Shown piece by piece: positions 47,040-59,464 of a stretch of 64,000 nt of DNA. Positions within the stretch are counted from its first letter, which is position 1, and each line of letters begins with the position of its first letter. The position numbers and the translations under genes were made by a program. The notes below the pieces were generated by a model. It made no database searches. It was not told the origin of the DNA and saw only the letters and a list, made by a program, of their open reading frames with translations. Source of the DNA: Caulobacter sp. S45 (GTDB lineage Bacteria > Pseudomonadota > Alphaproteobacteria > Caulobacterales > Caulobacteraceae); contig NZ_LMUL01000014.1 of assembly GCF_009765965.1 (NCBI RefSeq), positions 2,147,884 through 2,211,883 on the forward strand, in the 5' to 3' direction.

Positions 47040-48572
47040 CTACTTCACCGGCGTTTCCGCCCCGCCCTTCTTGGCGTCTGGAATTCCCAGCGGTGTGACC
47101 GGCGGGGCCTGCTCCCAGCCGCCGCCGAGCGCCTTGAATACGGTCACCTGGTCCGACGCCAGAAGTTGGCTGGAATTGGCCAGCGAGGACTGGGCGTTCA
47201 CCAGCTCGGTCTCGGTGGTCAGCAGGTCCAGATAGCTGGCCGAGCCGTCGCGGTAACGCACCTGGGCCAAGGCGTACGCCCTCTGGTCCGCCTCCAGCGC
47301 CGCGGCCAGGGAGGCGTGGCGGCGCAGCTCGGAACCATAGCTGGTCAGGGCCTCCTCGGTGTCCTGCAGCGCCTGCAGCACCACGCCCTGGAAGTTGGCC
47401 AGCGAGGCCGAGGCCGTGCCGCGCGCCTGGCGGATCTGGGCCTGGGCCACCAGGGTGTTGGGGAAGTTCCAGGTCAGCATCGGCCCGACGCTCCACGCCA
47501 GCCCGCTGGCCGAGGCCAGGTTGCCGAGCTTGCTGGCCGATTCCAGGGCCGAACCGCCGATATCGATCGAGGGATACAGGTTGGCGGTGGCCACGCCGAT
47601 CCGTTCGACATTGGCGGCGAGCTGGCGTTCCGCCTGGCGCACGTCGGGCCGGCGACGGAACAGGGACTGGGCGTCGCCCACGGGCAGGACCTGGTCCAGG
47701 ACGGGCGGCGCGGTGCAGGCGTCGGCCGCCTTGGAGATGTCTTCCGGCGGGCGGCCGGTGAGCACGGCCAGTTCGAACAGGGCGGTGCGCCGCTGGCCCT
47801 CGAAGGTGGGGATGGTGGCGCGGGTCTGCTCGACCAGGGCGCGCTGGCGGGCGAGGTCGAAGTCCGACACCGAGCCGGCGTTCAGCTCTCCCGCGATGAC
47901 GTCGTAGCCGTCGGTGGTGATCTTCAGCGACTGGTTGGCCACCGCCAGTTCCTGCGCGAATGCGCAGGCGTTGACGTAGGCGCGGGTGGTCTCGGCCGCG
48001 ACGGTGATGCGGGTCACGTCGGCAGCGGCGGCCTGGGCCTGGTAGTCCGCCTTGGCCGCCCGGATCGAACGGGTGATGCGGCCGAACAGGTCCACCTCGT
48101 AGGAGACGTCCAGGCCGTAGGAATAGAAGGCTTCGGCGTTGGGGACTGGGCCGCTGCCCAGGCTCGAGCGGTTCTCGATGTCGGACACCAGCAGGGAGTC
48201 GCTGCTCACCCCATACTGGGCGCCCGCTGACAGCGTGGTGGACGGGAAGCGACCCGCGCGCGCCTGGGACAGCGCAGCGCGCGCCACGCTGAGGTTGGCG
48301 GCGGCCTGCAGCAGGTTGGTGTTGTGGGTCAGGGCGTCCTGGACCAGGGCGTCGAGCGCGGGGACGTTGTACAGCCGCCACCAGTTCGGCGGCGGGGGCG
48401 GCAGGGCGGTGATGTCGGGGGCGTTGGAGGCGAAGTTCCCGCCGCCGACCGCGTCCGGCGCGGGCGTCTTGGGCGGGACATAGCCCGGTCCGACCACGCA
48501 TCCGCCCAGCGTCGCGACCAGGGCGGCGATCCCAGCGCCGCGCAGGACAGGATTTCGCAAGCGCTTGGCCAT
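47040..48572 (-). CDS. nodT: outer-membrane efflux channel, NodT family lipoprotein
   Basis: A 510-aa TolC-like channel. The leader ends in ALVATLGGC with a lipobox, followed by VVGPGYVPPKTPAPD, typical of NodT/OprM proteins. Two long coiled helical repeats (AAANLSVARAALSQARAGRFPS and LFRRRPDVRQAERQLAANVERIGVA) form the periplasmic tunnel. ATG 48572 follows GGTGGAG and starts 2 bp after the pump gene stop. It is the exit duct of the RND efflux system encoded just upstream, as in Caulobacter AcrAB-NodT. Confidence 0.9.
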   Translation of the reverse strand: MAKRLRNPVLRGAGIAALVATLGGCVVGPGYVPPKTPAPDAVGGGNFASNAPDITALPPPPPNWWRLYNVPALDALVQDALTHNTNLLQAAANLSVARAALSQARAGRFPSTTLSAGAQYGVSSDSLLVSDIENRSSLGSGPVPNAEAFYSYGLDVSYEVDLFGRITRSIRAAKADYQAQAAAADVTRITVAAETTRAYVNACAFAQELAVANQSLKITTDGYDVIAGELNAGSVSDFDLARQRALVEQTRATIPTFEGQRRTALFELAVLTGRPPEDISKAADACTAPPVLDQVLPVGDAQSLFRRRPDVRQAERQLAANVERIGVATANLYPSIDIGGSALESASKLGNLASASGLAWSVGPMLTWNFPNTLVAQAQIRQARGTASASLANFQGVVLQALQDTEEALTSYGSELRRHASLAAALEADQRAYALAQVRYRDGSASYLDLLTTETELVNAQSSLANSSQLLASDQVTVFKALGGGWEQAPPVTPLGIPDAKKGGAETPVK

Positions 48573-48574
48573 GC

Positions 48575-51500
48575 TCAAGTCTCCACCCCCGACGGCATGC
48601 CCCCGGTGGTCGGAACGTCCGGCTGCTTCTTTGGTGGCTTGGGCAGGCGATCCCCGAGCCAGCGCATCACCACGTAGAACACCGGCGTGAAGATCAGGCC
48701 GAAGATGGTCACCCCGATCATGCCGAAGAACACCGCCACGCCCAGCGCCTGGCGCAGTTCCGCGCCCGCACCATGGGCAAAGGCCAGCGGGATCACCCCC
48801 AGGATGAAGGCGAAAGAGGTCATCAGGATCGGCCGCAGGCGGGTGCGCGCCGCCTCCACCGCCGCTTCGAAGCGGTCGTGGCCATGCTCGATCTCGCCCT
48901 GGCGCGCGAACTCCACGATCAGGATGGCGTTCTTAGCCGCCAGTCCGATCAGCACTATGAAGCCGATCTGGGTCAGGATGTTGTTGTCCATCCCCATCAG
49001 GTTCACGCCGGTGATGGCGGCCAGCAGGCACATCGGGATGATCAGGATCACCGCCAGAGGCATGGTCACGCTTTCGTACAGCGCCGCCAGCAGCAGGAAG
49101 ACCAGGATCACCGCCAGCACGAACACCAGCCCGGCCGTATTGCCCGCCGCCTGCTGCTGATAGGCCAGTTCGGTCCAGTCGTAGTGGAAACCCTCGGGCA
49201 AGACCCGGGCGGCCGCCTTTTCCATGGCGGCCATGGTCTGGCCGGTGGAGTGGCCGGGCGGCGTGCTCGCCTGCACTTCTGCGGAGGGATAGAGCTGGTA
49301 GCGCAGCACGCGGTACGGACCGGTGGTGCGGTGGACGTTGACCACCGCGCCCAGCGGCATCATCGCCCCGCTGGCGGTGCGCGTCTGCAGCTGCTGGATC
49401 TCCGACACGTCCTGGCGGTACTGGGTGTCGGCCTGGGCGAACACCTCGTAGGTGTGGTTCAGGTAGTTGAAGTCGTCGATATAGGTCGAGCCCAGATAGG
49501 TCTGGAGCGTGTCGAACACCGAGCTGTCGTTGACGCCGTAGTATTCCGCCTTGGTCCGGTCGATGTCGGCGAAGATGCGGGGCGTATTGGTGTTGAAGGT
49601 GAGGTAGGCGCCGGTGACGCTGGGGTCCTTGTTCACCTCCTCGACCACGGCCTGGGCGACCTGCTGAAGCCGCGCGTAGTCGGCCTTGCCGGTCTGGTCC
49701 TCCACGATCATCTTCACCCCGCCCTGGGTGCCGATGCCGCGCACCGGCGGCGGCGGCAGGATGCGGATCTGGGCGGACGGGTCGATCGAAAGCCGCTTCT
49801 GGGCGTCGGCGATCATGCCGTCCAGGGTGATGTGGTGCTTCTTGCGCTCGTCGAAGCTGTCCTCGATCAGGTAGGCCTGTCCCGCCGCCGCGTTGGTGGT
49901 CTGGCTGGAAGCGTCCACGCCGGCGTAGGAGGATGTCGCGATCAGGCCCTTCACCCCGAGCACCTGGGGGATGGTGCGCCGGATCAGCTCGTCGGTGCGC
50001 GCCAGCGAAGACCCGTTGGGCAGGTTCGCCGCCATGATCACGTTGCCCTGGTCCTGGGCGGGGATGAAGCCGATCGGGGTGGCGCCGATCCGCCAGACGG
50101 TGAGCGCGATCAGGCCCACATAGACCACCAGCATCAGCACGCCGAGCCGGATCAGCTTCTTGGTGACTGCGCCATAGCCGTTGGCCAGCCGGTCGAAGCC
50201 CTTGTTGAAGACGCGCGCAAACCCGCTGAACGGCTTCTCCCACGGCTTCAGGCGACGACCGCTGGCGTGCTTGGGCCGCAGCAGCAGGGCGGCCATGGCG
50301 GGCGACAGGGTCAGCGAGACGATCAGGGAAAAGATGGTCGCCGTGGCGATGGTCAGGGCGAACTGCCGGTAGAACTGGCCGGAGATGCCCGAGATCATGG
50401 CGGCCGGGATGAACACCGCCGACAGCACCAGCGCGATGGCGACCAGGGCGCCGCCCACCTCGTCCATGGTGGCGTGCGCGGCTTCCTGGGGCCCCATTCC
50501 GTGTTCGAGGTGGCGCTCGACGTTCTCCACCACCACGATGGCGTCGTCGACCACGATGCCGATGGCCAGCACCAGGCCGAACAGCGACAGGTTGTTGAGC
50601 GAGAAGCCCGCCGCCAGCATCACCGCGAAGGTGCCGACCAGCGAGACCGGGATGGCCAGGATGGGGATGATCGCCGCCCGCCAGCTCTGCAGGAACACGA
50701 TCACCACGACGACCACCAGCAGCAGGGCCTCGAACAGGGTCTGGCGGACCTCGGCGATGGAGTCCTTGATGTACTGGGTCGGGTTGTAGATGATCTTGTA
50801 GTCGAGCCCCGGCGGGAAGCTCTTCTTCAGGACCTGCATCTCCTTCGTCACCGCATCGGCGGCGGCCAGGGCGTTGGTGCCCGGCAGCTGCAGGACGCCG
50901 ATGGCGGCGGCGGGGTTGGTGTCCGGCTTGCCGTCGGTGAGGATGCCCAGATAGGCGTTGGTGGTGTAGTCCGCCGCGCCCAGGCTGACCCGGGCGATGT
51001 CCGAAACCCGGGTGATGCGGTTCTGGTCGTCGCGCTTGAGCACGATCTCGCCGAACTCCTGCGGCGTGATCAGGCGACCCTTGGCCTGGACTTGGAGCTG
51101 GTAGGCGGACGGCCGTGCGCCGAAGGGCGGCGAGCCGATATTGCCGGCGGCGATCTGGATGTTGTGGCTGCGCAGCTGGGTGACGATGTCGTCCACCGTC
51201 AGGTTGCGCGCCGCCGCCTTGTCCGGGTCGATCCAGATGCGGATGGAATAGTCGCGGGCCGCGCGGGTGCTGATGTCGCCCACGCCCTTTAGGCGCAGCA
51301 GCGGATTCTGAATCTGCAGGGTGACGTAGTTGGCGACGTAGGCCTGGTCGAGCGACTTGTCCGGCGAGTACATGTGCACCGCCAGCAGGATGTCGGGGCT
51401 GGACTTGCGGACGATGATGCCGGTCTGCTGGACCTGCTGCGGCAGGCGCGGCTGGGCGGTGGTCACCCGGTCCTGGACCAGTTCCTGGGACTTATCGAGG

Positions 51501-51802
51501 TCGGTGCCGAGCGCGAAGGTGACGGTGATCTGCAGCTTGCCGTCGCCGGTGGACTGCGAGGACATGTAGAGCATGTCCTGGACGCCGTTGATCTGCTCCT
51601 CGATCGGATCGGCCACGGTTTCGGCGATGGTTTCGGCCGAGGCGCCCGGATAGGTCAGCGTGACGTTGACCGTCGGCGGCACGATCTCGGGATACTGGGC
51701 GGCGGGCAGGTTCGGATAGGCGATCGCTCCCAGCAGGGTGATCAGGATGGCGATGACGGCCGCGAACACCGGCCGGTCGATCATGAAGTGGGAGAAACGC
51801 AT
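48575..51802 (-). CDS. RND efflux permease, AcrB/MexB-like (HAE1)
   Basis: A 1075-aa inner-membrane proton-driven pump. It opens with MRFSHFMIDRPVFAAVIAIL, has twelve predicted helices and two large periplasmic loops. The helix 4 proton-relay motif is present (GLVLAIGIVVDDAIVVVENVERH), and QDQGNVIMAANLPNGSSLAR is typical of hydrophobe and amphiphile exporters. It should pump drugs or toxic amphiphiles to the channel through the adaptor. Start ATG 51802 is 15 bp after the adaptor stop. Confidence 0.94.
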   Translation of the reverse strand: MRFSHFMIDRPVFAAVIAILITLLGAIAYPNLPAAQYPEIVPPTVNVTLTYPGASAETIAETVADPIEEQINGVQDMLYMSSQSTGDGKLQITVTFALGTDLDKSQELVQDRVTTAQPRLPQQVQQTGIIVRKSSPDILLAVHMYSPDKSLDQAYVANYVTLQIQNPLLRLKGVGDISTRAARDYSIRIWIDPDKAAARNLTVDDIVTQLRSHNIQIAAGNIGSPPFGARPSAYQLQVQAKGRLITPQEFGEIVLKRDDQNRITRVSDIARVSLGAADYTTNAYLGILTDGKPDTNPAAAIGVLQLPGTNALAAADAVTKEMQVLKKSFPPGLDYKIIYNPTQYIKDSIAEVRQTLFEALLLVVVVVIVFLQSWRAAIIPILAIPVSLVGTFAVMLAAGFSLNNLSLFGLVLAIGIVVDDAIVVVENVERHLEHGMGPQEAAHATMDEVGGALVAIALVLSAVFIPAAMISGISGQFYRQFALTIATATIFSLIVSLTLSPAMAALLLRPKHASGRRLKPWEKPFSGFARVFNKGFDRLANGYGAVTKKLIRLGVLMLVVYVGLIALTVWRIGATPIGFIPAQDQGNVIMAANLPNGSSLARTDELIRRTIPQVLGVKGLIATSSYAGVDASSQTTNAAAGQAYLIEDSFDERKKHHITLDGMIADAQKRLSIDPSAQIRILPPPPVRGIGTQGGVKMIVEDQTGKADYARLQQVAQAVVEEVNKDPSVTGAYLTFNTNTPRIFADIDRTKAEYYGVNDSSVFDTLQTYLGSTYIDDFNYLNHTYEVFAQADTQYRQDVSEIQQLQTRTASGAMMPLGAVVNVHRTTGPYRVLRYQLYPSAEVQASTPPGHSTGQTMAAMEKAAARVLPEGFHYDWTELAYQQQAAGNTAGLVFVLAVILVFLLLAALYESVTMPLAVILIIPMCLLAAITGVNLMGMDNNILTQIGFIVLIGLAAKNAILIVEFARQGEIEHGHDRFEAAVEAARTRLRPILMTSFAFILGVIPLAFAHGAGAELRQALGVAVFFGMIGVTIFGLIFTPVFYVVMRWLGDRLPKPPKKQPDVPTTGGMPSGVET

Positions 51803-51817
51803 CCGCGCGCGCCGCCC

Positions 51818-53011
51818 TTAGCGTGTCTGTTCGGCGAAGGTGCCGGCGGCCGGCGGCGGCGTCAGATCGGCCGGCGTTGGCGAGCTTCCGGGGTCGGGCG
51901 GGGTGATCGTGCCCTGCTGGATGCGCACCTTGACCCCGACCTTGGCCCGTTGGACGCCGCTGATGATCACATCCTCGTCGGCCTTGAGGCCCGAACGCAC
52001 CACCCGCAGGCCGTCGACCGTGGGGCCGAACATGACCTTGCGCTGCTGGACCACGCCGTCATGGTCGACGACGTAGACGATCTGGTCGCTCTGCTGGCTG
52101 GTCACCGCGTCGTCGGGGATCAGCAGGGCGTCGTAGGCGCCCGAGCCCAGCAGCCGCAGATGCCCGAACAGGCCCGGCGTGAGCAGGTACTTGGGATTGG
52201 CGATCAGAGCCCGGCCGCGGATGGTGCCCGAATTGGTGTCGAGCTGGTTGTCCACGAAGTCCATCCGGCCATGGATGGCGAAGTCGGGTTGGTCCTGAAG
52301 GCGGATGTCCACCGGGTTGGCGAAGCGGCGCGACGAGGGGCGGTCGCCGGCCTGGGATTGCCGCTCGTACTTCAGATACAGCGACTCCGCCCCGTTGAAG
52401 GTGAAGCGGATCGGGTCGAGATCGACCACGTTGGTCAGGATGGTGCTGTCCTGGGTCACCAGGTTGCCCACTGCGAAGCGGCGGTCGGACGCGCGGCCGT
52501 TCAGCGGCGAGATCACCCGCGTGAACACCAGGTTCAGGGCGGCGGTCTCGACATTGCCCTTGGCGGTCAGCACGTCGGCGGCCGACTGCTGCTCGGTGGA
52601 CAGGCGGGTCTGGTATTCCTGCTCGGAAATGGCGTGCGCGGCCAGCAGCTTGACCGCCCGGTCGAGCTCGACCTTGGCGTTGGCGAGGGTGGCCTCCGCA
52701 TGGGCGAGCTGGCCCTGCGCCTGATCGAGCGCCGCCTTGTAGGGGCGCGGGTCGATGACGAACAGCACCTGGCCCTTGTGGACGATCTGGCCGTCGGTGA
52801 AGTTGATCGACTGCAGGTAGCCGGACACCCGGGGCCGCACGTCCACCGAGTTCACCGCGTCGAACCGGCCGACGAAATCATCCCAGTCGACGATCCGCTT
52901 GGACAGGGGCTTGGAGATGACGACGGTGGGCGGCGGCGGGGCGGTCTTGGGCTTGGCGTGGCAGCCCGCCGCGATCAGACAGGCGACGCTCATCAGCACA
53001 GCCTTGCGCAT
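51818..53011 (-). CDS. RND efflux periplasmic adaptor (membrane fusion protein)
   Basis: A 397-aa lipoprotein-like adaptor. The leader ACLIAAGCHA has a lipobox. Lipoyl-like halves (VRPRVSGYLQSINFTDGQIVHKGQVLFVID), a coiled hairpin (ALDQAQGQLAHAEATLANAKVELDRAVKLL) and a beta-barrel (RFTFNGAESLYLKYE) follow in the usual order. It bridges pump and channel. ATG 53011 has GGTGGAG upstream. It is the first gene of the three-gene efflux operon; no TetR-type regulator gene lies beside it. Confidence 0.93.
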   Translation of the reverse strand: MRKAVLMSVACLIAAGCHAKPKTAPPPPTVVISKPLSKRIVDWDDFVGRFDAVNSVDVRPRVSGYLQSINFTDGQIVHKGQVLFVIDPRPYKAALDQAQGQLAHAEATLANAKVELDRAVKLLAAHAISEQEYQTRLSTEQQSAADVLTAKGNVETAALNLVFTRVISPLNGRASDRRFAVGNLVTQDSTILTNVVDLDPIRFTFNGAESLYLKYERQSQAGDRPSSRRFANPVDIRLQDQPDFAIHGRMDFVDNQLDTNSGTIRGRALIANPKYLLTPGLFGHLRLLGSGAYDALLIPDDAVTSQQSDQIVYVVDHDGVVQQRKVMFGPTVDGLRVVRSGLKADEDVIISGVQRAKVGVKVRIQQGTITPPDPGSSPTPADLTPPPAAGTFAEQTR

Positions 53012-53322: not shown

Positions 53323-54429
53323 TCAAGATTTCGCGGCGAACTTCTGGATCAGGCTGAGCGCCAGCCGCTGGACGGCGGAGCCGCCGAAGTCCGCGCCCCC
53401 CGCATTGCAGACCGCGATCACCGCAAGCCCCTTGGCCGGACCGATCATGGCGGTGGAGGACCAGTAGCCGTTGTAGCTGCGCTGGGTCAGCACCGGGCCC
53501 TGGGCCCAGCTGCGCTCGGTGCTGACCAGCCATCCCGGCGCCGGTCCGGTCGGATCGTCCACGATCGGCGAGGCGATGTGCGGCAGGCTGCGCGGCTGCA
53601 GGTAGTCGCCGCCGTTGGTCAGGAAGATGCGTACGAACTTGGCGTAGTCCTCCAGCGACAGGTGAACCCGACTGGCCGGACCAAACACCGGCGGGTCGTC
53701 CGCCTCGGCGGCGGGGTTGACCTGGAGGTTGTGCTTCTCGTCGAGCCGCGCATGGCCCCAGGGCTGGTCGCCCGTCGGCGCGCCGAAACCCGCGCTGTCC
53801 ATGCCCAGGGGACCGAACAGCTCCGCCGAGATGGCGGTTTCCCAATCCATTTTTGTCGCCCGTTCGATCGCGGCGCCGACCAGCACATAGCCGGCGTTGG
53901 AGAAGACGTAGTCGCCCCGCCGTCCTACTGGCGGCGCGGCCAGCACGGCCTTGGCGAAGGCGGTGCGCTGGGCGGGCAGGGAGCGGGTGTCGTTCAGCCA
54001 CTTGTGCAGGGCTTCGGGCGTGGCGAACGGTTCGTCGCTGACCCCGGCCACGTGGGCCATCAGCTCCTCGATGGTGACGTCGCGCCAGGACTCCTCAGGC
54101 GTCAGGTCGGGGAACAGGTCGGGCACCTTGGCCCCCCAACGCACCCGGCCGGACTCGGCTACGCGGGCGTACAGCGCCGCGGTCATGGCCTGGGTGTTGG
54201 AGCCGATCAGCCACAGGTCCTGGGCGGTGACCGGGATCTTCTGGCCGCTGCGCCGGCGTCCGATGGCCTCGAGCCCGACGATCCCCTTGGGGGTGATCAC
54301 CGCGCCGCCGAGCGCCGGGACGTGGGACTGGTCCAGTAGGGCCGGCAGGGTGATGCGCGGCAGCACCCGCTGGCCGAGTTGGGCGATGCCGGCGCCACCG
54401 GCCAGCATCAGGCTGCGGCGGTCGATCAC
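53323..54429 (-). CDS. serine-hydrolase/beta-lactamase-fold protein with altered active site
   Basis: A 368-aa protein of the class C beta-lactamase family with a short twin-arginine-like start (RRSLMLAGG). All three catalytic motifs deviate. SxxK reads Ser77-Asn-Thr-Gln80, so the catalytic Lys is Gln. Y-x-N reads Phe176-Ser-Asn178. The H-x-G motif reads Tyr319-Asn-Gly321. The rest (GYVLVGAAIERAT, ELFGPLGMDSAGFG) is well conserved and codon use is normal, so it is a kept gene, perhaps a binding protein or an enzyme with a different mechanism. GTG 54429 overlaps the hisC stop (GTGA). Confidence 0.85.
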   Translation of the reverse strand: MIDRRSLMLAGGAGIAQLGQRVLPRITLPALLDQSHVPALGGAVITPKGIVGLEAIGRRRSGQKIPVTAQDLWLIGSNTQAMTAALYARVAESGRVRWGAKVPDLFPDLTPEESWRDVTIEELMAHVAGVSDEPFATPEALHKWLNDTRSLPAQRTAFAKAVLAAPPVGRRGDYVFSNAGYVLVGAAIERATKMDWETAISAELFGPLGMDSAGFGAPTGDQPWGHARLDEKHNLQVNPAAEADDPPVFGPASRVHLSLEDYAKFVRIFLTNGGDYLQPRSLPHIASPIVDDPTGPAPGWLVSTERSWAQGPVLTQRSYNGYWSSTAMIGPAKGLAVIAVCNAGGADFGGSAVQRLALSLIQKFAAKS

Positions 54430-55556
54430 GCGACGGCTTCCGCCACGCGCAGATAGGCGCCCAGGCCCTCGACCACCGCATCCATGTGCTCGGGCAGGCC
54501 GACGGTGATCCGCAGGCCGTCGCCGATCTGGTAGCCGCCCAGGCCGCGCACCAGCACGCCCCGCTGCGCCAGGAAGGTTTCGGCCTCCGCCGCCGTGCGC
54601 CCGGCCTCGCTGGGGAAGCGCACCAGCACGAAGTTGCCGAGCGAGGGGTAGACCTTCAAGCCCAGCCGCTTGAGGCTGGCTTCCAGACGTGGGCGCTGTT
54701 CGATCACCAGCGCGCGGGAGCGGTCCAGAAACGCCTGATCCGCCAGCGCTGCCGTCGCCGCCGCCTGGGCCGGCAGGTTGATGTTGAATGGCGCGCGGAT
54801 ACGATCCATGGCGTCGATCATCGCCGTCGCCGCATAGGCCCAGCCGACCCGCAGCGCCGCCAGCCCGTACATCTTGGAGAAGGTGCGGCAGACGATGACG
54901 TTGGGCGCCGTGCGCGCCAGTTCCAGGCCATCCTCATAGGCGGGGTCGTCGGCGAATTCGGCATAGGCGCCGTCCAGCACCAGGACCACGTCGGAAGGCA
55001 GCGCCGCGTGCAGGCGACGCACCTCCGCCCCGGAAATCCAGGTCCCGGTCGGGTTGGACGGATTGGCGATGAACACCAGGCGGGTGCGCGCGTCCACCTG
55101 CTGGAGCACCTGGTCCACATCGATGCGGAACTCGGGCTCGGGGGCGAAGCGCACCTCGGCCTGGGCGGCGCGGGCGGCGATGCGGTAGGCCAGGAAGCCG
55201 TACTGGCCTTGCACCATGTTGTCGCCGGGCTGGCAGTAGACCTGACACAGCAGGGTGAAGATCTCGTCGGAGCCGCAGCCGAAGATCAGCCGCTCCGGCT
55301 CCAGCGCGAAACGCTCGGCCAGGGCGCCGCGCAGGCCGTTGCTCCGTCCGTCGGGATAAAGGTGCAGCTTGCCCGCGACGCCGACGTAGGCCCGCCGCGC
55401 TGCGTCGCTGGTCCCCAGGACGTTTTCGTTGGAAGACAGCTTCAGCGGGTCGGCGAAGCCTTCGGCGCTGGACTTGCCGCCGACATAGGGGGCGATGTCC
55501 AGGATGCCGGGCTTGGGCTTTGGGACCAGGGGCGAGGTCGGGCGGGTGTCGGTCAT
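54426..55556 (-). CDS. hisC: histidinol-phosphate aminotransferase family
   Basis: A 376-aa fold-type I PLP aminotransferase. GILDIAPYVGGKS and KLSSNENVLGTS are HisC-like; IANPSNPTGTWI, VLDGAYAEFADD and RTFSKMYGLAALRVGWA (PLP-binding Lys) complete the active site. Expected reaction is imidazole-acetol phosphate with glutamate to L-histidinol phosphate; some members act on phenylalanine or tyrosine. No other his gene is present here. ATG 55556 begins the conserved region. It is coupled by a 4-bp overlap to the serine-hydrolase-like gene. Confidence 0.88.
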   Translation of the reverse strand: MTDTRPTSPLVPKPKPGILDIAPYVGGKSSAEGFADPLKLSSNENVLGTSDAARRAYVGVAGKLHLYPDGRSNGLRGALAERFALEPERLIFGCGSDEIFTLLCQVYCQPGDNMVQGQYGFLAYRIAARAAQAEVRFAPEPEFRIDVDQVLQQVDARTRLVFIANPSNPTGTWISGAEVRRLHAALPSDVVLVLDGAYAEFADDPAYEDGLELARTAPNVIVCRTFSKMYGLAALRVGWAYAATAMIDAMDRIRAPFNINLPAQAAATAALADQAFLDRSRALVIEQRPRLEASLKRLGLKVYPSLGNFVLVRFPSEAGRTAAEAETFLAQRGVLVRGLGGYQIGDGLRITVGLPEHMDAVVEGLGAYLRVAEAVA

Positions 55557-55696
55557 AGGGGTTCGAGGCGTTTCCGTTTCGCGCAGATAGCGCCTGGATC
55601 GGAGCGGCTTCAAGGCGGCCGAGCTTGCGCCTTGCAGCGGGCGTCCCGACCAGTGCAGAAAAAGGCGCGCCGGTACGGCCGCAAGATAGGCTAAAA

Positions 55697-57731: not shown

Positions 57732-58667
57732 TCATGTGGTCTGGCCCAGGATCGACATCGCCGTGCGCCGCGCCGCCACCGCCGCCACTAGGGCCGCGGC
57801 CAGGGGACAAGGGACGGCTGCCACCAGGTCGGTCCACGCCAGCGGCAGGGCGGGGGTGAAGCCATTGCTTCCGCCCAGGCTTCGCGCCAGGGCCGCCAGC
57901 ACCACCGCCGCCAGTGCGCCGTACCCGCCTGCGCGTGCGGCGAGGAAGGCGAAGCGGCGCTGGAACAGTCCGGCGATGAAGCGATCCCTGGCTCCGGACA
58001 GGTGCAGCACCTCGACCACGTCGCGCCGCGCCGCCAATCCCGCGCGGGTGGCGAAGGCGATCACCGCCCCAGCGGCGGCGGCGACCAGGAGCGCCCCGAT
58101 CGATCCTATGCCCCGCACAGCGGCGCCCGACGCCTCCACGTCCTTCATCCAGCGGCTGTGATCGTCCACGGTGGCGTCCAGCCCCTCGGCGTCCAGCGCG
58201 GCGGTCAGGGCGGCCGCATTGGCCGGATGGGCGGGGTCGAGCTCGACGGTCACCAGATGGGGGATGGGCAGGTCGTCGGGGATGTTGCCCTTGCCGAGCC
58301 AGGGTTCCAGCAGCTTTTCCGCCGCCGCGCGGTCCAGGGCCTGGGCCTCCTGCACACCGGGCACGCCGGCCAGGGCCTCGGCGGCGCGGGCGGCGGCCTC
58401 CGACCCGGTCTCGCCGGCCTTGGGCCGCACCTGCACCGTGGCCGACGCGCCCAGCTCGCGGCGCCAGCCCGAGGCCGCGCGGCCGGACGCCAGCATGGCG
58501 AACACGCTCATGCAGGCCAGGAAGCACAGCGCCGCCACCACGAAGGTCAGCGCCCGGTCCCGCCCGTCCTGGGTCGGCAGCAGGGGCGCGGGCCGCCAGT
58601 CCATCCAAGCATCATCCTGGGGGTCGCCCCGGGTGCGCGCCTCGTTCGCCGCCATCGTCGCGCTCAT
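57732..58667 (-). CDS. ftsX: cell division protein FtsX
   Basis: A 311-aa membrane protein with four helices: one after a cytoplasmic N-terminus (ALTFVVAALCFLACMSVFAML) and three in the C-terminal half, with a periplasmic domain between (VTVELDPAHPANAAALTAAL). This is the FtsX fold. With FtsE it forms an ABC-type complex that activates cell wall hydrolases at the septum. ATG 58667 overlaps the ftsE stop (ATGA). Sequence is divergent, as is usual for FtsX; context makes the call firm. Confidence 0.88.
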   Translation of the reverse strand: MSATMAANEARTRGDPQDDAWMDWRPAPLLPTQDGRDRALTFVVAALCFLACMSVFAMLASGRAASGWRRELGASATVQVRPKAGETGSEAAARAAEALAGVPGVQEAQALDRAAAEKLLEPWLGKGNIPDDLPIPHLVTVELDPAHPANAAALTAALDAEGLDATVDDHSRWMKDVEASGAAVRGIGSIGALLVAAAAGAVIAFATRAGLAARRDVVEVLHLSGARDRFIAGLFQRRFAFLAARAGGYGALAAVVLAALARSLGGSNGFTPALPLAWTDLVAAVPCPLAAALVAAVAARRTAMSILGQTT

Positions 58668-59464
58668 TCCTGAGGGCTTACGCGCTCGGGCTGCGCGCGC
58701 ACAAGGCGACCATCGGTCAGATGCAGCACCGGCATGCCCGATTGGCGCACGAGAGTCTGGTCGTGGCTGGCGATCAATACGGTGGCGCCCAGGCGGTTCA
58801 TCTCCACGAACAGGCGCAGCAGGCGAAGGCTCATGTCCGGGTCGACATTGCCGGTGGGCTCGTCGGCGATCAGGATTTCCGGACGCACCACCACCGCCCG
58901 CGCGATGGCCAGGCGCTGCTTTTCGCCACCGGACAGGGTCGGCGGCATGGCCAGCATCCGCCGGCCGAGCCCCACCCACTCCAGCAGCTCCGCCACGTCC
59001 TTGCGGTAGTCGTCGGGGCGCATCCCCGCGATCCGCAGCGGCAGGGCGACATTATCGAAGGCCGACAGGTGGTCGAGCAGGCTGAATTCCTGGAACACCA
59101 CCCCGATCCGGCGCCGCAGCTTGGGCAATGCGGCCCGCTCCAGGGTCGAAACGTCCTGGTTGAACAGGTGGATCAGCCCCCGCGAGGGCCGATGGGCCAG
59201 ATAGATCAGCTTCAGCAGCGAACTCTTGCCTGCGCCGGACGCGCCGGTAAGGAAATGGAAGGACCCCGGCGCCAGACTGAGGTTAATGTCCTTCAGCACC
59301 TCCGGAGCGCGACCGTAGCGCATGCCGACCCCCTCGAAGCGCACGACAGGCGCGCCGGATGCGGCGGACGCGCCAGCCCCCTCGCCCGTCCTGCGCGCAG
59401 CGGATCGGCGCGAGGTCGTGGGCGCGTTTGTGGGATCGTCTGGAAAAGGGTCGGGCCTGGGCAT
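58664..59464 (-). CDS. ftsE: cell division ATP-binding protein FtsE
   Basis: A 266-aa ABC ATPase. Walker A GASGAGKSS, Q-loop VVFQEFSLLDHLSAFDNVALPL, signature LSGGEKQRLAIARA, Walker B ILIADEPTGNVD and the switch His in IASHD are intact. An N-terminal extension of about 40 residues, rich in Ala, Pro and Arg, precedes the usual start; a shorter form could begin near VVRFEGVGMRYG. It powers FtsX at the divisome. Divergent from the zinc-ribbon gene across 57 bp. Confidence 0.93.
   Translation of the reverse strand: MPRPDPFPDDPTNAPTTSRRSAARRTGEGAGASAASGAPVVRFEGVGMRYGRAPEVLKDINLSLAPGSFHFLTGASGAGKSSLLKLIYLAHRPSRGLIHLFNQDVSTLERAALPKLRRRIGVVFQEFSLLDHLSAFDNVALPLRIAGMRPDDYRKDVAELLEWVGLGRRMLAMPPTLSGGEKQRLAIARAVVVRPEILIADEPTGNVDPDMSLRLLRLFVEMNRLGATVLIASHDQTLVRQSGMPVLHLTDGRLVRAQPERVSPQE

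Follow-up and report, generated by a model that had tools for sequence, protein, structure and literature searches.

The window, by which we mean the whole analysed stretch of 64,000 nucleotides, contains a gene with a GTG start whose product belongs to the PF00144 domain family (Table 1). The earlier note had proposed a serine-hydrolase fold for this open reading frame, and its coordinates, its length and the PF00144 match were all confirmed. The match covers residues 30–346 against a cut-off of 27 bits, and the score of 132 bits falls inside the span of 126.5–151.9 bits seen for the intact copies listed alongside it from the genera g12, g11 and g22. Here g1 denotes the genus of the window, and g11, g12, g20 and g22 are other genera of the same bacterial family. 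This family is probably Caulobacteraceae: among PDB entries the RpoB of the host matches 7ye1, the Caulobacter crescentus polymerase, best (2707.6 bits, against 1781.8 for the next). The arginine pair at the N-terminus suggests that the protein may be exported by the Tat system. When starts were picked by rule of thumb, RR occurred within the first 15 residues in all three g1 species, in five of six g20 orthologues and in 73 of 109 intact orthologues. A clear AxA cleavage site was not found in the N-terminus of the window copy. The fold model of the protein, built from a three-sequence alignment, was poor (pLDDT 41.6).

The stop of hisC overlaps the start of the gene by 4 nt (GTGA). An internal ATG (MTDTRP...) may be the real start of hisC. 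A scan of the locus for promoters and terminators gave nothing beyond chance. Downstream of the gene, on the same strand and some 310 bp away, sequence reading places an RND-like efflux operon (window 47040–53011). The fusion protein of this putative operon, the sole gene of it tested, matched HlyD-type families; at the loci of the other two g1 species, L009 and L010, other genes come after the orthologue. A few kb upstream of hisC lies a pair named FtsX/FtsE-like from its sequence (window 57732–59464), and ORFs related to this putative pair are found near hisC in g12.

Table 1. Positions in the window of the gene, its motifs and the preceding hisC.
Feature	Position	Strand	Basis
Degenerate S12/PF00144 protein, 368 aa	53323..54429	-	ORF, translation, PF00144 132.6 bits, orthologues
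Twin-arginine signal-like N-terminus, residues 1-21, MIDRRSLMLAGGAG...	54367..54429	-	Sequence
Motif I, Ser77-Asn-Thr-Gln80 (intact orthologues: SxxK)	54190..54201	-	Orthologue alignment
Motif II, Phe176-Ser-Asn178 (intact orthologues: YxN)	53896..53904	-	Orthologue alignment
Motif III in its true register, Gln316-Arg-Ser318 (intact orthologues: HxG)	53476..53484	-	Orthologue alignment
Tyr319-Asn-Gly321, earlier mistaken for motif III, 3 residues downstream of the real position	53467..53475	-	
hisC, histidinol-phosphate aminotransferase	54426..55613	-	TIGR01141 301.8 bits vs cut-off 276.55 (equivalog)

An active S12 enzyme is recognized by SxxK, YxN with a catalytic tyrosine, and HxG (or KTG). 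The earlier note held that all three had changed, to SNTQ, FSN and YNG. The first two readings proved right: the window protein has S77-N-T-Q80 and F176-S-N178. The third was out of register by three residues. Comparison of the block without a gap (GPVL-TQRSYNGYW in the window, GPVL-AHEGSNTLW in the family) places Gln316-Arg-Ser318 opposite His316-x-Gly318, and positions 319–321 are Ser319-Asn320-Thr321 in most intact orthologues. The motifs are thus altered as claimed, but not in every residue, as the nucleophile Ser77 and Asn178 are retained in g1. In the three g1 species Lys80 is replaced by Gln next to Ser77, and Tyr176 by Phe two residues before Asn178; at the HxG site the relatives of the window copy have Ala and Thr. 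In a profile of 16 intact orthologues, S-x-T-K, Y-S-N and H-x-G align with the motifs of R61 DD-carboxypeptidase and alkaline D-peptidase. To our knowledge, the S12/PBP fold has no acylation or deacylation base other than those supplied by Lys80 and Tyr176. Loss of His-x-Gly in this fold means an altered strand on the substrate side.

Orthologues were found at E <= 1e-40 in 125 of 390 genomes of the bacterial family, in 11 of its 22 genera. The intact set comprised 109 orthologues, each of at least 300 aa. Left out of it were own-genome paralogues, 23 homologues at greater distance, duplicates (L008, L062 and L062b) and three fragments below 300 aa (L142, L152 and L154), whose motif residues are normal wherever they can be read. 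Ser77, Tyr176, Asn178, His316 and Gly318 are invariant in 109/109 intact orthologues, and Lys80 is present in 108. The sole exception, L011 (G028, g12), has Glu at this position (SNTE) and is otherwise intact; the Glu may be one more step towards loss or a fault of a single assembly. In genome G245 two intact copies, L044 and L062 (371 and 380 aa), stand adjacent in tandem.

Our statements about g1 are drawn from three species. In all of them Gln80 and Phe176 are fixed and Ser77 and Asn178 retained. Of the residues that the earlier note had singled out for an alignment, Gln80 and Phe176 are therefore conserved within the genus and Tyr319 is not, being Ser in the other two species. Position 316 is Gln, Ala and Ala, and position 318 Ser, Thr and Thr, against His and Gly in the intact orthologues. 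Segment 316–320 varies inside g1, whereas motifs I and II are fixed in their new state; between the window copy and L009 every position of this strand differs. Further near-invariant positions are altered in all three species (His74->Leu, Asn245->Asp, Gly253->Ser and Tyr296->Pro), and Trp73, His126, Asp132, Arg155, His226, Trp300, Trp323 and Asn342 are retained in all three. Orthologues with the normal residues, named in the earlier note as a sign of strain-specific decay, do exist, in other genera. Such decay is excluded for the catalytic changes, and sequencing error is rejected as their source, because Gln80 and Phe176 are common to all three g1 species.

A close intact copy was not found in the genome of the window: the two remaining matches listed cover part of the protein at 25% and 27% identity, and the further PF00144 members of this genome are genes of their own. 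A search of viral contigs for relatives of the protein gave none. We also assessed how common such a loss is among other PF00144 genes. In 12 genomes of the family we tried 73 loci, about half of the PF00144 matches in these genomes, and could read motif I in 69; the loci either had scores from the middle of the range upwards or were hand-picked, with many of the lowest-scoring matches left out. It turned out that all 69 retain the Ser and Lys of SxxK. This indicates that loss of SxxK is not ordinary background for PF00144 in the sampled genomes.

A second lineage without the catalytic residues was found in g20. Its six orthologues (L155–L160) all have Asp77 and Met80; position 176 is Leu or Pro, position 178 is Arg or Gln, and His316 is retained in three. 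A Trp-Trp pair at 207–208 occurs in all six and was not seen among intact orthologues. The lineage also has a common C-terminal tail, FNELKF in five copies and FNELNL in one, that is absent from 109/109 intact orthologues. In five of the six contigs the g20 gene comes after a gene of the thioredoxin/AhpC-TSA type on the same strand, and in four of these five a gene for argininosuccinate lyase adjoins; the L159 region was merged by ORF calling and the L160 contig is short. Both trees have a supported branch that separates g1, g12, g20 and L013 from the rest (SH-aLRT 99; 96/90 for the other side). Neither the gene tree (p-AU 0.182) nor the RpoB+HisC tree (p-AU 0.24) rejects a grouping of g1 with g20. 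We tentatively favour separate losses of catalysis in g1 and g20 over a single one, because the substitutions differ and because the link with hisC is common to g1 and the intact g12.

To assess selection, we used NG86 values of dN/dS only, many of the ML dS values being saturated. For L009 and L010, the closest pair in g1, dN/dS is 0.118, and for the close g20 pairs it is 0.158 and 0.197; the median of 27 intact sister pairs is 0.202 (range 0.07–0.36). The departure from neutrality in the L009–L010 pair and the two close g20 pairs is strong (Fisher p 1.8e-26, 1.1e-31 and 5.8e-31). More distant g20 pairs give 0.25–0.41. At the deeper split of g1 dN/dS rises to 0.42–0.45. This value more likely reflects saturation or base composition than relaxation, because hisC of the same genomes gives a similar 0.37–0.43. 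Relative to hisC, dN is 0.42–1.14 in three g1 pairs, 1.75–2.71 in six g20 pairs and 1.30–3.62 in nine intact pairs. Purifying selection thus acts on the gene no less strongly than on the intact orthologues. The caveat to its maintenance by selection is one in-frame stop, a TAG at codon 303 of L010 (G001); the other two g1 copies have none. Past the stop, L010 differs from L009 by 18 synonymous and 8 nonsynonymous changes over about 54 and 144 sites. Either constraint in L010 lasted until recently, or the TAG arose as an error in this genome, which is 85% complete.

We consider it probable that the window protein is an S12/PBP-fold pseudoenzyme kept for a non-catalytic role in the envelope, probably the binding of a ligand or partner. 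Two marks of a pseudoenzyme, the loss of catalytic motifs that an intact family retains and maintenance by selection, were both found, and this is the simplest reading because the catalytic residues are lost and yet selection is strong. The protein descends vertically from the intact S12/PBP-fold family, as the orthologues record, and would probably reach the envelope through Tat export. Lys80 and Tyr176, needed as base and proton relay of the Ser-Lys-Tyr acyl-enzyme mechanism, have been lost together with the His-x-Gly strand motif, the rest of the fold being preserved by selection. The degenerate site would carry out no turnover. The retained job may be to bind, but not hydrolyse, either a protein partner or a ligand resembling a peptide or peptidoglycan, much as in the degenerate LytM proteins. 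We infer, then, a binding or regulatory role of non-catalytic nature.

The earlier note had left two branches: the protein is either a pseudoenzyme that binds or regulates, or a hydrolase that works by another mechanism. The genus-wide loss, together with purifying selection matching that of intact orthologues, favours the first. The second is possible since Ser77 remains, but it is the less favoured. It would make the protein a hydrolase or transferase in which Ser77 is still the nucleophile and is activated by something other than Lys80 or Tyr176. Ser77 and Asn178 persist in all three g1 species, although a purely structural role needs neither, which counts against a pseudoenzyme; AmpC, too, retains some activity when either of the corresponding residues, Lys or Tyr, is mutated singly. 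However, in g1 both helper residues and HxG changed together, the 316–320 strand is wholly different between the window copy and L009, and every g20 copy has Asp in place of the serine, so that we regard an altered mechanism as rather unlikely. It is also improbable that we see the first stages of gene decay, following the end of the enzyme's usefulness, with the low dN/dS as a lag. The stop in L010 and the variable 316–320 segment would fit such decay. Against it, Gln80 and Phe176 are common to g1 species that are about 68% identical, and the catalytic loss is therefore old; since that loss dN/dS has been as low as 0.118 in the closest pair, the L010 sequence past the TAG still bears the mark of constraint, and two of the three copies have no stop. 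A maintained pseudoenzyme thus remains our preferred reading.

The last alternative starts from the neighbouring gene. The earlier note had described the gene as co-translated with hisC. The overlap is real, but as evidence of shared function it is weak, as the link is confined to two genera. All three g1 species show overlap or abutment with hisC, and in g12 hisC immediately precedes the intact gene in two of three species, L011 having an intervening ORF. Among the loci examined, with flanks of mostly about 1.5 kb, hisC was found only in g1 and g12; outside these genera it is located elsewhere in the genomes where it was sought (19 of 20 genomes matched). Therefore, co-translation is a local arrangement that says little about function. 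The neighbours of intact orthologues vary and indicate no common pathway. The shared transcript could suggest that the protein is a partner of HisC in the metabolism of histidine or aromatic amino acids. The arrangement in g1 and g12 speaks for this, but hisC is missing from the examined flanks (mostly about 1.5 kb) of the loci beyond them, the g20 gene comes after a thioredoxin-like gene instead, and the N-terminus suggests export, in contrast to the cytosolic HisC. We find such a partnership highly improbable. 

Among solved structures, those that best match the intact orthologues are the Streptomyces R61 DD-carboxypeptidase (1cef; E 3.2e-35 with the 16-sequence intact profile) and alkaline D-peptidase (4y7p; E 1.9e-35). 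In the window protein, by contrast, the Lys and the Tyr of these enzymes are missing, as is HxG. Class C beta-lactamases (AmpC) belong to the same domain family, but their catalytic motifs are absent from the window protein, which scores 36.4 bits with the NCBIfam class C model against a cut-off of 415 and so falls outside this class. The sensor domains of BlaR1 and MecR1 use a penicillin-recognizing fold for sensing and not for turnover. Unlike the window protein, they keep SxxK and are acylated, and they belong to a different superfamily class. CcEstA, a family VIII esterase of Caulobacter crescentus (5gkv), has the same fold, and the window protein matches it directly at a weak 36.1 bits. 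PMC5131357 gives its working residues as Ser68-x-x-Lys71, Tyr157 and His328/Gly330; with these motifs as described there, CcEstA is a working enzyme and the window protein differs from it. An analogy in mode of action is DipM of Caulobacter crescentus: according to PMC10336132, several autolysins interact with its LytM domain, which is inactive. As presented there, DipM is a dead envelope enzyme fold kept as a regulator. Its fold is unrelated, and the regulatory role shown for DipM in that text is only suggested for the window protein.

In open-access full text, none of the best literature matches described a dead or inactive family of the S12/PBP fold. The site in g1 has become fixed as Leu74-Gln80-Phe176-Asp245, and that of g20 as Asp77-Met80 with the Trp-Trp pair and the FNEL tail. 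We put forward, tentatively and as something short of an even chance, that an S12 peptidase has become a non-catalytic envelope protein at least twice in a single bacterial family, through differing substitutions, and that the dead site or new surface features bind a partner. Proteins of the PF00144 fold are usually annotated as beta-lactamase or peptidase from the domain alone, and the window protein is a clear, conserved exception. The intact orthologues of sister genera and the differently substituted g20 lineage allow a natural comparison between a single envelope protein in its living and in its dead form. Should the protein indeed act by binding, the known degenerate cell-wall regulators of Caulobacter would gain a counterpart with the S12 fold.
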